Shown one piece after another: positions 2,780-54,444 of a stretch of DNA of 64,000 bases. The stretch comes from Sulfurihydrogenibium subterraneum DSM 15120. GTDB taxonomy: Bacteria; Aquificota; Aquificia; Aquificales; Hydrogenothermaceae. Under the pieces are notes generated by a model. That model was given only the letters and a program-made list of their open reading frames with translations, was not told the origin of the DNA and searched no databases. Both the position numbers and the translations under genes were made by a program. Positions within the stretch are counted from its first letter, which is position 1. Each line of letters starts with the position of its first letter. The stretch is from the NCBI RefSeq assembly GCF_000619805.1, contig NZ_JHUV01000008.1:186001-250000 (forward strand), read 5' to 3'.

Positions 2780-3691
2780 ATGATTGAAGAGTTTTCTCAG
2801 ATAAAAAAAGATTTTCAATTTACAGAAGAAGATGTAAAGAATATAGTAAAACTTAAACCTATATTTGAAAAGTACCCTGATGATTTTATAGAAAAATTCT
2901 ACGAATTTATTTTAAGATTCCCTCAAGCAAAAGATTTTTTAAAAAACGAAGAAATTATAAAAAGACACAGAGAAAAAGTAAAAAAGTGGTTTTTAGATCT
3001 TTTTAGTGGAAATTATGATTTAGAGTACTTTTTAAAATTAAAAAGAATAGGAGAAGTTCACGTTCAAATAGGGCTTCCTACTCATTACGTAAATGCCAGT
3101 ATGAATTTCGTAAGAAGATACATAATTGATGTTATTGATAAAGAAGTTGAAGACAGAAAAGAAAGGAATTTATATGTAGCTTCAATAGGAAAACTTCTTG
3201 ATATTAATCTTGATATTTTAACTGTTTCTTACAGAGAAGAAGAACTTTCAAAGTATGCTGAAATGACAGCAATGGAAAAAAAGATATACGGTTTTGCTAA
3301 AAAGTTTTCCGATGTAATAGATTTATTTATTTTAATGGCTTTAGTTATAGTAGCTCTATCAGTATTTTTCCTTTTTGGATATGATTTGTATAAACTTACT
3401 TTTAACATCGTTGAACTGGAAGAAGGTATTCTATCTATTTTAGGTAGTCTATTAATTCTTTGGGCTGTTGGAGAGCTTATGACGGAAGAGCTAAGACACC
3501 TTAAAGGTGGTAGGTTTGCCATCACCGTGTTTGTTGGTATCGCATTAGCAGCGATAATAAGAAAACTGTTTATAGCATCTTTAGGCTCGGACTCTGAAAA
3601 AAAAGCTATAGACCTGCTGTCTTACAGTGCTGTAATACTGTCTCTTGGAATTGTATTTTGGCTTATATCTAAACGGGAATCAAAAGAGTAA
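2780..3691 (+). CDS. protoglobin domain fused to a PsiE-like membrane domain
   Basis: Of 303 residues, about 1-165 resemble protoglobins and globin-coupled sensor domains. The block RIGEVHVQIGLPTHYV carries a candidate proximal heme-binding His at residue 94. After a short linker, residues about 180-298 form roughly four hydrophobic segments resembling the PsiE family, including the pair WAVGELMTEEL and VGIALAAIIRKLF. No output domain such as GGDEF or a kinase is present. Protoglobins bind O2, NO or CO, so the arrangement suggests a heme gas sensor in the cytoplasm acting on a membrane domain. The function of PsiE is not established. The start at 2780 has GGGAG upstream. It is followed 50 bases later by cysS and may be cotranscribed with it. 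Confidence 0.75.
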   Translation: MIEEFSQIKKDFQFTEEDVKNIVKLKPIFEKYPDDFIEKFYEFILRFPQAKDFLKNEEIIKRHREKVKKWFLDLFSGNYDLEYFLKLKRIGEVHVQIGLPTHYVNASMNFVRRYIIDVIDKEVEDRKERNLYVASIGKLLDINLDILTVSYREEELSKYAEMTAMEKKIYGFAKKFSDVIDLFILMALVIVALSVFFLFGYDLYKLTFNIVELEEGILSILGSLLILWAVGELMTEELRHLKGGRFAITVFVGIALAAIIRKLFIASLGSDSEKKAIDLLSYSAVILSLGIVFWLISKRESKE

Positions 3692-3741: not shown

Positions 3742-5205
3742 ATGAGTTTAAAGATATACAATACTTTAACTGGAAAAAAAGAAGATTTTGCCCCTATCAA
3801 ACCACCACAAGTAAAGATATATACCTGCGGTGTTACAGTTTATGATTACAACCACGTAGGACACGGAAGAAGTCTTATAGTCTTCGATATGATAAGAAGA
3901 TATTTAAGATACTTAGGATACAATGTTATCTTTGTAAGAAACTTTACAGATGTTGATGATAAGATTATAAACAGAGCAAAAAACGAATGTCTTCCCTTCA
4001 CAGTAATATCAGATAAATATATAAAAGAGTACTTTGACGATGCTGAAAAGTTTAGAATAGAACCTGCAGACATAGAGCCAAGAGTAACAACTCACATTCC
4101 AGATATAATCAAATTTATTCAGGAGCTGATTGACAAAGGTTATGCCTACGAAGTTGACGGAGATGTTTACTTTTCTGTTAGAAAGTTTAAAGATTACGGA
4201 AAGTTATCAAAAAGAAGTATAGATGAGCTTTTAGCAGGTGCAAGAATAGAGCCAGGAGAAAAGAAAAAAGACCCTCTTGATTTTGCTCTGTGGAAGTCAG
4301 CAAAAGCAGGAGAGCCATACTGGGAGTCTCCTTGGGGGAAAGGAAGACCAGGATGGCATACAGAATGCTGTGCAATGATATTTAAACATTTAGGTGAAAC
4401 AATAGACATACATGGTGGCGGTCTAGACCTAACTTTTCCACACCACGAAAACGAGATAGCTCAAGCTGAAAGCTTAACAGGAAAACCTTTTGCAAGATAC
4501 TGGATACATAACGGGCTTGTTACTGTTAATGGTCAAAAAATGTCAAAATCCTTAGGAAACTACGTTACTTTAAAAGAGATTTACTCAAGGTATGAGCCAG
4601 ACATTCTAAGACTCCTTGTTTTATCAGTACATTACAGAAGTCCATTAGATTTTTCTTGGGAAAAGATGGAAGAGACTAAAAAAGCCTACGAAAGATTAAA
4701 AAATGCAATACAAGAGTATGAAATACTGCAAAAACTACCTGTAGATGAAAACTTTGAAGGAGATTTATACTCAGCAATCCAAAAAGCACAGTCTGGATTT
4801 TACTCTGCAATGAGTGATGACTTTAACACTCCTGAAGCATTAGCATCTTTATTTGGACTTGTTAGAGAGATGAACATATTGAAAGATAAAGCTATAAAAC
4901 AAGGTGGAATATCAAAAAAAGCACTTAACTCCTACAAAGAAGCTGCAGACACACTTCACAATATAGGTAGAGACATATTTGGATTTTTTGACAGCTTACA
5001 ACCTTGTACAAAAACTGAAGAAATGAAAATAGAAAAACAAGAAGAAAAGTTAGACGAAGACCTTATAAACATACTGATAGAAGTAAGAGATAAAGCAAGA
5101 AAAGAAAAACAGTTTGCCATTGCAGACACGATAAGAGATAAGTTAGCAGAAAAAGGAATAGTAATAGAAGACACACCTTTTGGAACAAAATGGAAAAAAG
5201 CGTAG
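3742..5205 (+). CDS. cysS: cysteinyl-tRNA synthetase
   Basis: 487 residues, close to the usual length. It charges tRNA-Cys with cysteine in the cytoplasm. The class I signatures are clear: HVGH at 38-41 (HIGH equivalent) and KMSKS at 266-270. Zinc and substrate residues are present in [18 protein letters not shown] and FPHHENE. The C-terminal DALR/helical region is complete. Start at 3742 follows GGGGAG. The last 16 bases overlap the methyltransferase gene, so the two are coupled. Nothing unusual seen. Confidence 0.97.
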
Positions 5206-5874: not shown

Positions 5875-7035
5875 TTGATAGAAGAAGCTAATAAATATCT
5901 TTTTCAAAACTATGGAAGATTACCTTATTTTTTCGAAAAAGGTGAAGGTTGCTACCTTTATGACGAAAAAGGGAAAAAGTACTTAGATATGCTATCAGGT
6001 ATAGCCGTAAATGCACTTGGCTACAACCATCCAAAACTTACCGATGCCATCTGTCAACAGGTAAGTAAGATAATCCACATATCTAACTTATTTTACATAA
6101 AGCCACAGATAGAAGTTGCAAAAATACTGTCTGAAAACAGCTTTGGAGGAAAAGTTTTCTTCTGCAACTCTGGAGCAGAAAGCAACGAAGCTCTTATAAA
6201 ACTTGTAAGAAGGTACTTTTACGATAAAAAACAAGACAAATATGAGATAATAACCTTTGAAGGAAGTTTCCACGGAAGAACCCTTGCAACAGTTACAGCA
6301 ACAGCTCAGCCTAAGTACCATGAAGGATTTTATCCACTAGTGGGAGGATTTAAATATGCAAAGTTTAATGATATTAATTCAGTTAAAAATCTTATAACAG
6401 ACAAAACAGCTGCTATTTTAATAGAGTTAGTCCAAGGAGAAGGTGGCGTAAATCCTGCTGATAAGGAGTTTATAAAAGATCTTTATAATCTCTGCAAAGA
6501 AAAAGATATACTTTTTACAGTTGACGAAGTTCAAACTGGAATAGGAAGAACAGGAAAACTGTTTGCTTACCAGCATTTTGAGATACAACCTGATATTATC
6601 TCTCTTGCCAAAGGACTTGGTGGAGGAGTACCTATAGGAGCTATCATAGCAAAAGATAAAATAGCAAAATCTTTTGTCCCAGGAACTCACGCATCTACAT
6701 TTGGAGGAAACTACTTATCAACAGTTGCAGCAAAAGTAGTTTTAGAAGAAGTTTTATCAGAAGGATTTTTAGATAAAGTACAAAAAGTAGGAGATTATCT
6801 AAAAGAGTCTTTAAAAGTATTTGGATACCCTGTAAAAGGTTTAGGTCTTATGGTAGGTATGGATTTACCAAAAGATATTCCTGCAAAAGAAGTTATGAAA
6901 AAAGCTTTAGAAAAAGGATTAATAGTAGGAACGGCTGGAGAAAATACCTTAAGATTTGTTCCACCATTAATAATAACAGAAAAGCAAGTAGATGAAGCTG
7001 TAGATATACTAAAAGAGGTTTTGAATGTCTATTGA
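5875..7035 (+). CDS. argD: acetylornithine aminotransferase
   Basis: 386 residues of the class III PLP aminotransferase family. It converts N-acetylglutamate semialdehyde to N-acetylornithine in arginine synthesis; many ArgD proteins also act in lysine synthesis. The PLP lysine is K246 in SLAKGLGGG. Other family blocks are NSGAESNEAL, SFHGRTLAT and VDEVQTGIGRTG. It begins with TTG at 5875, supported by GGAGG seven bases upstream and the absence of a better ATG. The last 11 bases overlap the Rpn-like gene. Family call secure; acetylornithine versus another omega-amino substrate rests on overall similarity. Confidence 0.9.
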   Translation: MIEEANKYLFQNYGRLPYFFEKGEGCYLYDEKGKKYLDMLSGIAVNALGYNHPKLTDAICQQVSKIIHISNLFYIKPQIEVAKILSENSFGGKVFFCNSGAESNEALIKLVRRYFYDKKQDKYEIITFEGSFHGRTLATVTATAQPKYHEGFYPLVGGFKYAKFNDINSVKNLITDKTAAILIELVQGEGGVNPADKEFIKDLYNLCKEKDILFTVDEVQTGIGRTGKLFAYQHFEIQPDIISLAKGLGGGVPIGAIIAKDKIAKSFVPGTHASTFGGNYLSTVAAKVVLEEVLSEGFLDKVQKVGDYLKESLKVFGYPVKGLGLMVGMDLPKDIPAKEVMKKALEKGLIVGTAGENTLRFVPPLIITEKQVDEAVDILKEVLNVY

Positions 7036-8032
7036 AAAATCTCCTCACGACTGGTTTTTTAAAACAATTTTCTCTAAGGAAGAAAACACAGAGAGATTTT
7101 TAAAAGGCTTTCTACCTAACATTTATAAGATAATAAAACCAAATTCTTTAAAACTTTTACCTACAGAAAAACAAAGTGATAAGAGAGAAAAATTTTTCTT
7201 AGATTTATCCTTTGAGTGTAAACTAAACATAAACTCACCAAATAACAACGCTATACTTTATTTTGTATTTGAACACAAATCTTTTCCAGATAAAAGAACT
7301 CCTTCACAGATAGCATACTATAAAGCATTAATAATGGAAGAAGATGAAAAAAAGTCCAGACCATACACACCAGTAATACCTATAGTCTTTTATCACGGAA
7401 GTAAAGACTGGAACATTCCTAAATCTATACCAGATTTAAAGCCTTATCCATCTAACATGAAATTATACATACATTCATTGGACTATGTCCTAGTGGACTT
7501 AAATAAGATAAGCTCTAAAAGGATAGTTAAAGAATTTTACGACGACATTTGCCTGTTATCAGCTGTTTTAACACTAAAGAATATTTTTAGAGATTTCAAA
7601 GACTTAAAACCTATTCTAAAAAATTTACTTGTTGCAGAAACAAAAAAGTGTATTTATATTATTATTGATTACATCGTACTTGCAAAGAAAGATTTAAAAA
7701 CTGTTGAGAACATCCTTGAAGAAGTAGGAGGGAAAGAAAAAATGATGACCTTAACTGAAAAGTGGAAAATGGAAGGATTAAAAAAAGGATGGGAAGAAGG
7801 ACTACAACAAGGACTACAACAAGGACTAAAGCAAGGGTTAGAGGAAGGAATCAAAAAACAGCTTAAAGATGATATAAAGGAAGCTATAGAAATAAAATTT
7901 GGAGAAGTGATAGAAGATATTTACAAGAAAATTGATAGTATAGATTCTGTTGAAGTATTAAAAAACATCTACAGAAGTATTATAAAGGCATCTAGTTTAG
8001 AAGAATTAGAAAATTACATAAATAACCTATAA
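7025..8032 (+). CDS. Rpn family PD-(D/E)XK nuclease / putative transposase
   Basis: 335 residues. The N-terminus (SPHDWFFKTIFS) and the block DLSFECKL followed by ILYFVFEHKS match the Rpn/YhgA group, with an ExK nuclease half-motif in EHKS. Rpn proteins are DNA endonucleases that promote RecA-independent recombination. A repeat of GLQQ/GLKQ/GLEE units lies near residues 255-275. Such Gly-Leu-Gln repeats are common before the C-terminus in this group and vary in copy number. It overlaps argD by 11 bases and precedes rnr by 9, so it is embedded in a housekeeping operon. No terminal repeats are visible, so it does not look like a mobile insertion in itself. Confidence 0.8.
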   Translation: MSIEKSPHDWFFKTIFSKEENTERFLKGFLPNIYKIIKPNSLKLLPTEKQSDKREKFFLDLSFECKLNINSPNNNAILYFVFEHKSFPDKRTPSQIAYYKALIMEEDEKKSRPYTPVIPIVFYHGSKDWNIPKSIPDLKPYPSNMKLYIHSLDYVLVDLNKISSKRIVKEFYDDICLLSAVLTLKNIFRDFKDLKPILKNLLVAETKKCIYIIIDYIVLAKKDLKTVENILEEVGGKEKMMTLTEKWKMEGLKKGWEEGLQQGLQQGLKQGLEEGIKKQLKDDIKEAIEIKFGEVIEDIYKKIDSIDSVEVLKNIYRSIIKASSLEELENYINNL

Positions 8033-52485: not shown

Positions 52486-54444
52486 TTACTTTCCAGTTGA
52501 ATATTTTATCTCAGGATTTGTTCCAGCTGGAGATACTCTCACATAGCCTTGCATTTCTTGGTGTAAAGCAGAACAGAAGTCAGTACAGTAGAATGGATAT
52601 ACGCCTGGTTTTTTAGGCTCCCATACCAATGTTTGAGTTTGCCCTGGTTTAACAAGTAATTCTGCGTTATTATTTCCAAGAATAGCAAAACCGTGAGGTA
52701 TATCCCAATCTTGCTCTAAATTTGTAATATGGAAGTAAACTTTATCTCCAACTTTTACACCTTCTATGTTGTCGGGAGTGAAGTGAGATCTTATCATTGT
52801 TAAGTAAACATGAACTTCGTTAGGTCCTTTCCTTACAACTTTTGCATCAGCTTCAGATTTAACTGCTTCTGGGTGTGCATTTGTCTTCAAGTCATAAATT
52901 TTTAAAGATCTATTTTTAACTAAATCAGCAGCTATACCTTGAGCATAGTGAGGTTCGCCTATTGTAGGGAAATCAAGGAGCATTTTCATTTTATCTCCAC
53001 TAATATCAATCAATTGGGCTGATTGGTTTAATTCCGGACCAGTTGGTAAATACCTATCTTTAGTTATTTTATTCATAGCAAGAAGGTATTTACCCCATGG
53101 CTTAGCTGAATCTCCACCCGGGATCATTAAATGGCCTATTGAGTAGTAAACAGGTATTCTATCAACCACTTTACAAGCTTTATAGTCGGTTTTAATTACT
53201 TCAGATGATACGAAACAAGATGTATAAGCATATCCTTTTCCGTCAAATTCGGTATGTAATGGACCAAGACATGGTTTTGGAACCTCACAATAATTAACAG
53301 CTTCATACTTTATAACAGGAATACCATCCACTTCTTTTTCAAACTGTTTATTTTCTATTGCTTTTAACATTTTAGAGAATGAATGAATTGGTAAAACTGT
53401 TGCAAGTTTACCACCACCTATTATATATTCTCCGGTTGGATCTACATCAACACCGTGTGGAGATTTAGGAGTAGGCAGGTAATATATAGATCCAGGACAA
53501 TCTTGTGGAGTTAGCATTTTAACAGATTTAAGTACTTCGGATTTAGCCATATGTTTTGTATGGTCATAAATGTTATGATAATATTCAGCAGGAAAATCTT
53601 TTCCTTTTCCTTCTGCAACACACTGTTCAAGTTTTTTCCAGTTAACTGCAGCAATATAATCTTTATCATTTTTAGAAGCGTTTATTTCAAGTAACGTATG
53701 TGCCTGTTCTGTATTATAGGATGTAAAGAAACACCAATCATGGGAAGGTCCTTTACCACAGTGTGCAAGGTCATAGTTATATCCCGGTACAAGAAGTTGG
53801 AAAGCCAAACTCATATGTCCCTCTTTTGGATCTACTTTTATAAAAGAGATAGTTCCTTTAAAATTTTCTGCATAAGATGCTATAGAAACATCTTTTTGAG
53901 ATATTGGAACACTAAAACGAGTTGATGCTGTTATATATTCTGTATTTTCTGTCGTAAAGGATGAGGCATGATTACCACCTGAATTAGGTATTTCTATAAT
54001 TTCTTCAGTTTCAAAAGTATCTAAAGAAATTCTTGCAATTCTTGGGGTGTTATTCGCGTTGATAAAAACCCATCTACCATCGGGAGCACCGTTAGTTTGA
54101 GACAATTCTGGATGGTGAGAATCATCCCATGGAACAAATCCCCAAGATGTCATAAGCATAGGCTTTGTTTCTTCTGAATATCCATATCCATTTTCAGGAA
54201 ACTGTGAAAAAACCGGTATAATTTTTAATAACCTACCAGAAGGTAATCCATAAACTGTAAGCTGTCCAGAAAAACCCCCAGAAACAAATGCGTAAAATTC
54301 ATCATACTGACCTGGCGGTACATAAACCTTTCTTGCTGCATCTTCTGCACCTGCTCCGGACTGCACCTGTTCCTTTTTTGGACAACCAAAAAGGAATAAA
54401 GAGGAGAGGGCTAATATCCCACCTCCTAAAATCAATTTCTTCAT
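52486..54444 (-). CDS. nosZ: nitrous oxide reductase, clade II type
   Basis: 652 residues. It reduces N2O to N2 in the periplasm. The CuZ ligands include the DDSHHPELS pair. The CuA domain at the C-terminus has FYCTDFCSALHQEMQG (two Cys, His, Met). The signal lacks twin arginines and instead reads LSSLFLFGC with Cys21, a lipobox, so it is Sec-type and possibly lipid-anchored. That matches clade II in export route. AGGAGG precedes the ATG. Regulated by the box at 54508-54521. Confidence 0.95.
   Translation of the reverse strand: MKKLILGGGILALSSLFLFGCPKKEQVQSGAGAEDAARKVYVPPGQYDEFYAFVSGGFSGQLTVYGLPSGRLLKIIPVFSQFPENGYGYSEETKPMLMTSWGFVPWDDSHHPELSQTNGAPDGRWVFINANNTPRIARISLDTFETEEIIEIPNSGGNHASSFTTENTEYITASTRFSVPISQKDVSIASYAENFKGTISFIKVDPKEGHMSLAFQLLVPGYNYDLAHCGKGPSHDWCFFTSYNTEQAHTLLEINASKNDKDYIAAVNWKKLEQCVAEGKGKDFPAEYYHNIYDHTKHMAKSEVLKSVKMLTPQDCPGSIYYLPTPKSPHGVDVDPTGEYIIGGGKLATVLPIHSFSKMLKAIENKQFEKEVDGIPVIKYEAVNYCEVPKPCLGPLHTEFDGKGYAYTSCFVSSEVIKTDYKACKVVDRIPVYYSIGHLMIPGGDSAKPWGKYLLAMNKITKDRYLPTGPELNQSAQLIDISGDKMKMLLDFPTIGEPHYAQGIAADLVKNRSLKIYDLKTNAHPEAVKSEADAKVVRKGPNEVHVYLTMIRSHFTPDNIEGVKVGDKVYFHITNLEQDWDIPHGFAILGNNNAELLVKPGQTQTLVWEPKKPGVYPFYCTDFCSALHQEMQGYVRVSPAGTNPEIKYSTGK

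Follow-up and report, generated by a model that had tools for sequence, protein, structure and literature searches.

A gene in the 64,000-nucleotide stretch of Sulfurihydrogenibium subterraneum DSM 15120 analyzed here (the window) encodes a protoglobin fused to a PsiE membrane domain, and this protein is, with a probability of roughly 0.6, a globin-coupled sensor with a membrane output. The fusion is far beyond chance: in Pfam searches, Protoglobin (PF11563) matches residues 4-155 with 107.1 bits (cut-off 25, E 1.1e-30), PsiE (PF06146) matches residues 181-300 with 78.8 bits (cut-off 23.9, E 4.9e-22), and no other family scores over its cut-off; the protein has no enzymatic domain. A preliminary description of this DNA had proposed a globin within residues 1-165, with His94 as candidate proximal heme ligand, followed by a four-helix PsiE-like membrane half devoid of enzymatic output; these assignments are supported by the domain matches, by the fold of the globin, by the conservation of His94 and by four membrane segments (Table 1). 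In the host genome, the fusion is the only protoglobin gene and one of three PsiE-domain genes. The two others are globin-less (L003 and L004, at G000 C10:139486-139815 and C11:82691-83044), and in L004 the glutamate that is invariant in the fusions is apparently missing.

Table 1. Features of the globin-PsiE fusion gene and of the gene that follows it, in positions of the window.
Feature	Position	Strand	Basis
Globin-PsiE fusion, whole gene	2780..3691	+	ORF of 303 aa, ATG start
Protoglobin / globin-coupled-sensor domain, residues 4-155	2789..3244	+	Pfam, 2W31 match, fold match
Tyr41, B10 distal position	2900..2902	+	94/119 homologues; also in 2W31
His63 at E7, candidate distal ligand, one turn before E11	2966..2968	+	70/119 homologues
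His94, proximal F8 heme ligand (predicted)	3059..3061	+	113/119 homologues; aligns with 2W31 His93
Linker from globin H helix to TM1, residues 156-180	3245..3319	+	K138-L188 spacing; model
Membrane domain of PsiE type with four TM helices, residues 181-300	3320..3679	+	Pfam PF06146, hydropathy, model
Glu232, inner end of TM2	3473..3475	+	119/119; also kept in PsiE-only genes
Arg261, TM3	3560..3562	+	119/119; also kept in PsiE-only genes
cysS, next gene, 50 bp downstream of fusion	3742..5205	+	likewise downstream of the fusion at related loci in this family

The fusion is a widespread family across three phyla and no local oddity. A search for it in other genomes had been proposed in the preliminary description, and whole-genome searches with the protein have located the full-length form in about 75 of 136 Aquificota genomes (a count from the listed places), and, in two further phyla to which a delta-proteobacterial and a Nitrospirae relative belong, in 50 of 395 and 58 of 296 genomes, respectively. 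Plasmid and viral carriers of the fusion were looked for and none was found. The homologue L005 is 87% identical to the window protein. When residue conservation was counted in 119 distinct aligned homologues, the proximal His94 was present in 113, including the window protein, and this F8 histidine is kept by all members of the delta and Nitrospirae groups. Trp70 is invariant (119/119), His102 occurs in 114 and Tyr41 in 94 sequences. In the PsiE half, Gly222, Leu225, Glu232, Leu233, Phe251 and Arg261 are found in all 119 homologues. Between close relatives, dN/dS is about 0.03-0.09 for both halves, which indicates purifying selection.

Two variants were also observed. At one locus in the genus of the window (L141, in the one-contig genome G100), one frameshift interrupts the PsiE half within TM3, the remainder of the domain running on in another frame; either the function is truly lost or the sequence contains an error. 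In the genomes of one family (f5, L117-L127), the globin contains an insertion of ~33 residues between the F8 histidine and Lys138 which was found nowhere else in the family.

Among solved structures, the nearest to the globin in sequence is 2W31, which represents this domain in GsGCS from Geobacter sulfurreducens and aligns ungapped over 154 residues (6-159) with 38% identity (E 4.5e-36). An AlphaFold monomer was modeled from the window protein and three relatives. Structure prediction had been suggested in the preliminary description for both halves: the modeled globin, with pLDDT of about 80-93 over much of the domain, superposes on 2W31 with a TM score of 0.92 at 1.5 A, whereas the membrane half, drawn as four helices (164-207, 213-239, 245-266 and 272-301), has a pLDDT of about 41-74, too poor for its fold to be interpreted. 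No relative of the PsiE half was found by sequence among the solved structures of the PDB.

The topology of the protein was examined from mean hydropathy and charge profiles of 120 homologues, which delineate four membrane segments in the C-terminal half. The region preceding TM1 and the C-terminal tail are richer in Lys and Arg than in Asp and Glu, the opposite being true of the TM1-TM2 loop, and because of this charge pattern the globin most likely resides on the cytoplasmic side. In the model, the linker is broken near residues 160-163, with low confidence, and is not a single unbroken helix. Counted from Lys138 (H helix) to Leu188 (TM1), the spacing amounts to 51 residues in 106 sequences out of 120 and to 50 in another 10. 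Such nearly constant spacing across three phyla is the pattern expected of domains which are coupled and not merely tethered.

In a genus of the same order (g16), the gene occupies one conserved site across genomes. This site is flanked upstream by what we take, from reading the sequences, to be GTP-cyclohydrolase-like and ABC transporter genes and downstream by a presumed HesB/IscA-like gene. One genome carries the full fusion (L095), two carry a 274-aa form whose N-terminal part has no globin score and no F8 histidine (L108 and L109), and in seven others (L110-L116) the PsiE domain only is encoded, in most cases by an ORF about 145 aa long. In a PsiE-domain tree, the shrunken and PsiE-only forms are nested among full fusions and L107 represents a separate, second shrinkage. 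The tree counts alone give no direction of change, but every outgroup is a full fusion and remnants of the H helix are still recognizable in the shrunken forms. L108 and L109 share 45% identity in their N-terminal remnants and 79% in the PsiE part, and dN/dS is about 0.05-0.1 between the PsiE-only genes. What is new here is a gene series along which the globin appears to shrink, to lose its predicted heme ligand and to vanish within one Aquificota genus, with PsiE staying under purifying selection. Decay of the globin with PsiE constrained points to PsiE as the retained, selected function and to the globin as a modifiable or removable regulator. That several lineages have lost the globin half and kept the membrane half suggests that the globin acts as a gas or redox switch controlling PsiE; the control of PsiE by the globin which the preliminary description had put forward thereby gains indirect support.

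It could alternatively be considered that PsiE is a mere anchor and that the protein is a membrane-tethered globin enzyme which, close to the respiratory chain, performs NO dioxygenation, acts as a peroxidase or scavenges O2. Protoglobins do bind O2, CO and NO in vitro (PMC3680402), and a few neighboring genes point in the same direction: a cbb3-like oxidase pair (COX1 and FixO) lies just downstream of the fusion, on the opposite strand, in three genomes of a single genus (g4; L143, L144 and L147), and three loci in the family of the window (L130, L132 and L141) have SCO1 immediately upstream. These genes hint at a link with aerobic respiration in few lineages only. However, a mere anchor is not expected to carry an invariant Glu and an invariant Arg in its helices, nor to remain under strong purifying selection after globin loss; moreover, the oxidase neighbors are confined to few lineages, and both a reductase domain and a partner gene are absent. 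We therefore regard a tethered enzyme as unlikely.

More generally, the genomic context of the fusion is that of housekeeping genes. Clustering of the neighbors in 98 loci revealed no conserved operon partner, only lineage-specific housekeeping genes: cysS adjoins the fusion in the window's family, and the others are presumably dapA and dapB in f5, purH and purD in the Nitrospirae group, and ndk and rlmN in the delta group. No RNA regulator was found near the fusion gene. Two further genes of the window were noted: a gene for an Rpn-family nuclease or putative transposase (7025-8032, + strand) within the housekeeping run starting at cysS, and a divergent gene for a predicted protein of 114 aa (2228-2572, - strand), located between the fusion and a TolC-type outer membrane efflux gene, which has no family match over cut-off.

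The preliminary description had also related the fusion to the handling of N2O by a microaerophile. As a general explanation, a link with N2O or denitrification is not supported. The Sec-dependent NosZ gene of the window (52486-54444) lies 49 kb from the fusion, no denitrification gene recurs as a neighbor among the 98 clustered loci, and the f5 genomes keep the F8 histidine, have cytochrome bd and give no COX1-superfamily match, which implies that they have no NorB of that family. A link with heme-copper respiration fares no better, since f5 retains the ligand histidine without a COX1-superfamily gene and the f3 genomes have lost both; these patterns leave no simple rule tying the globin to heme-copper respiration.

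In the same f3 genomes (L104-L106), the globin fold is kept and still matches Pfam at 1e-20, while the proximal histidine is replaced by Phe and B10 is Ser or Thr. Judging by these substitutions, heme is probably not needed there, and the three proteins are probably heme-less globin-PsiE fusions. This observation, along with a weak similarity of the window protein to Rsbr_N, is what could be invoked for a regulatory globin which operates independently of heme throughout the family, as in Bacillus RsbR, in response to a stimulus other than gas. The F8 histidine is nevertheless present in 113 of 119 homologues, among them the window protein and every member of the delta and Nitrospirae groups, and such a heme-independent module appears quite improbable.

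On the distal side of the pocket, the numbering of E7 and E11 was derived from the ungapped alignment to His66(E11) of 2W31, which is the distal ligand of that domain according to a published account (PMC4476040). In the window protein, E11 is Val67 and the histidine is His63, at E7. Among the 119 homologues, a histidine occupies E7 in 70 and E11 in 7, never both, and 42 have neither. In the Nitrospirae group, Tyr at B10 is replaced by His or Ser in many members (within L076-L080, L083, L084 and L087), with Gln at E11 and the F8 histidine kept, which makes for an unusual distal pocket. The distribution of the distal histidines invites a special form of the sensor reading, in which His63(E7) would bind the iron, leaving the heme bis-histidyl at rest, and rupture of the His63-iron bond would report redox state or NO, by analogy with the E11 histidine of the Geobacter domain. 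Hexacoordination by Geobacter His66(E11) is reported in the same account, with reference to Pesce 2009 (PMC4476040). Yet 42 homologues have neither histidine, the E7 histidine may merely stabilize a bound ligand, and the E7 and E11 patterns follow clades and hence reflect few events, so that we hold a redox switch to be a tentative refinement with rather less than even odds.

A plausible mechanism for a globin-coupled sensor with membrane output can be outlined. The cytoplasmic globin would hold heme through His94 (F8), its distal side being occupied by Tyr41 (B10) and His63 (E7), and would change state upon binding of a diatomic gas or upon oxidation or reduction. This change would travel from the H helix through the length-fixed linker of ~25 residues to TM1 of the PsiE four-helix bundle, where it would alter the bundle with its invariant Glu232 and Arg261 and thereby a putative transport, channel or partner-binding activity. 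The computations show the two domains, the ligand residues, the topology, the constant spacing, the conservation and the persistence of PsiE after globin loss, whereas heme binding, switching, the direction of the signal, the ligand and the activity of PsiE are steps which we infer; O2 and NO, the candidates of the preliminary description, and redox are possible stimuli. Weighing against a sensor are the lack of a partner gene common to the lineages, the absence of the F8 histidine in f3, the low confidence and broken helix of the modeled linker, the poor model of the membrane half and the absence of a PsiE relative among sequence matches to solved structures.

The fusion was also compared with known systems. 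GsGCS, the closest solved globin domain, shares with it the F8 histidine and the B10 tyrosine, and differs in the distal histidine, which is at E11 in GsGCS and at E7, with Val at E11, in the window protein. Since the Geobacter-like homologue L060, whose globin is 64% identical to 2W31 with His at E11, carries a PsiE half, GsGCS probably has the same globin-PsiE architecture, with an output domain that we infer to be PsiE from this resemblance. HemAT, AfGcHK and DosC/BpeGReg have in common with the fusion the N-terminal globin fold, the proximal histidine and the order of N-terminal sensor then C-terminal domain; their outputs are MCP, kinase and GGDEF domains, in contrast to PsiE, a distinct four-TM domain which is neither enzymatic nor chemotactic and is not known to signal. 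The single-domain protoglobin of the archaeon Methanosarcina acetivorans belongs to the same Pfam Protoglobin family and fold but has no membrane half and gives a weaker match (E about 1e-3). In Bacillus subtilis RsbR, a globin-derived sensor domain has lost heme and kept its output (PMC4476040); this loss parallels the f3 genomes and the g16 decay series, the RsbR output being a STAS domain within a soluble stressosome. E. coli PsiE and the PsiE-like proteins of tLST/LHR islands share the PF06146 domain and the four TM helices, while the fusion additionally carries a globin and, at 24.4 bits, stays well below the cut-off of 138 for the NCBIfam PsiE equivalog. PhoB control of E. coli psiE is disputed (PMC10294691), and the phosphate label of PsiE consequently says little. 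PsiE from stress-tolerance islands has been detected as expressed (PMC7010813) and was named by low similarity (PMC8290217).

No description of a globin-coupled sensor or protoglobin joined to PsiE was found in the literature searched, which took in only a minority of subscription papers, so that an earlier account may exist; domain databases will list the architecture. PsiE occurs from E. coli to archaea and also on transmissible stress-tolerance islands, and to our knowledge no function has been established for any PsiE. It is possible, though we would put it below even odds, that PsiE is an effector under heme-based control, the fusion being a transporter, channel or docking protein of the membrane that is gated by gas or redox state and represents an output class of its own among globin-coupled sensors, and that standalone PsiE proteins, in E. 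coli and on stress-tolerance islands, perform the same activity ungated. Because nature has joined PsiE to a sensor type whose ligands are known, the fusion offers a handle on PsiE, as O2, CO, NO or dithionite could switch the globin while the membrane half is monitored. The decay series at one locus, from fusion to heme-less stump to PsiE alone, shows which half is retained and provides natural controls, and the fusion would extend the known outputs of globin-coupled sensors by one in the membrane.
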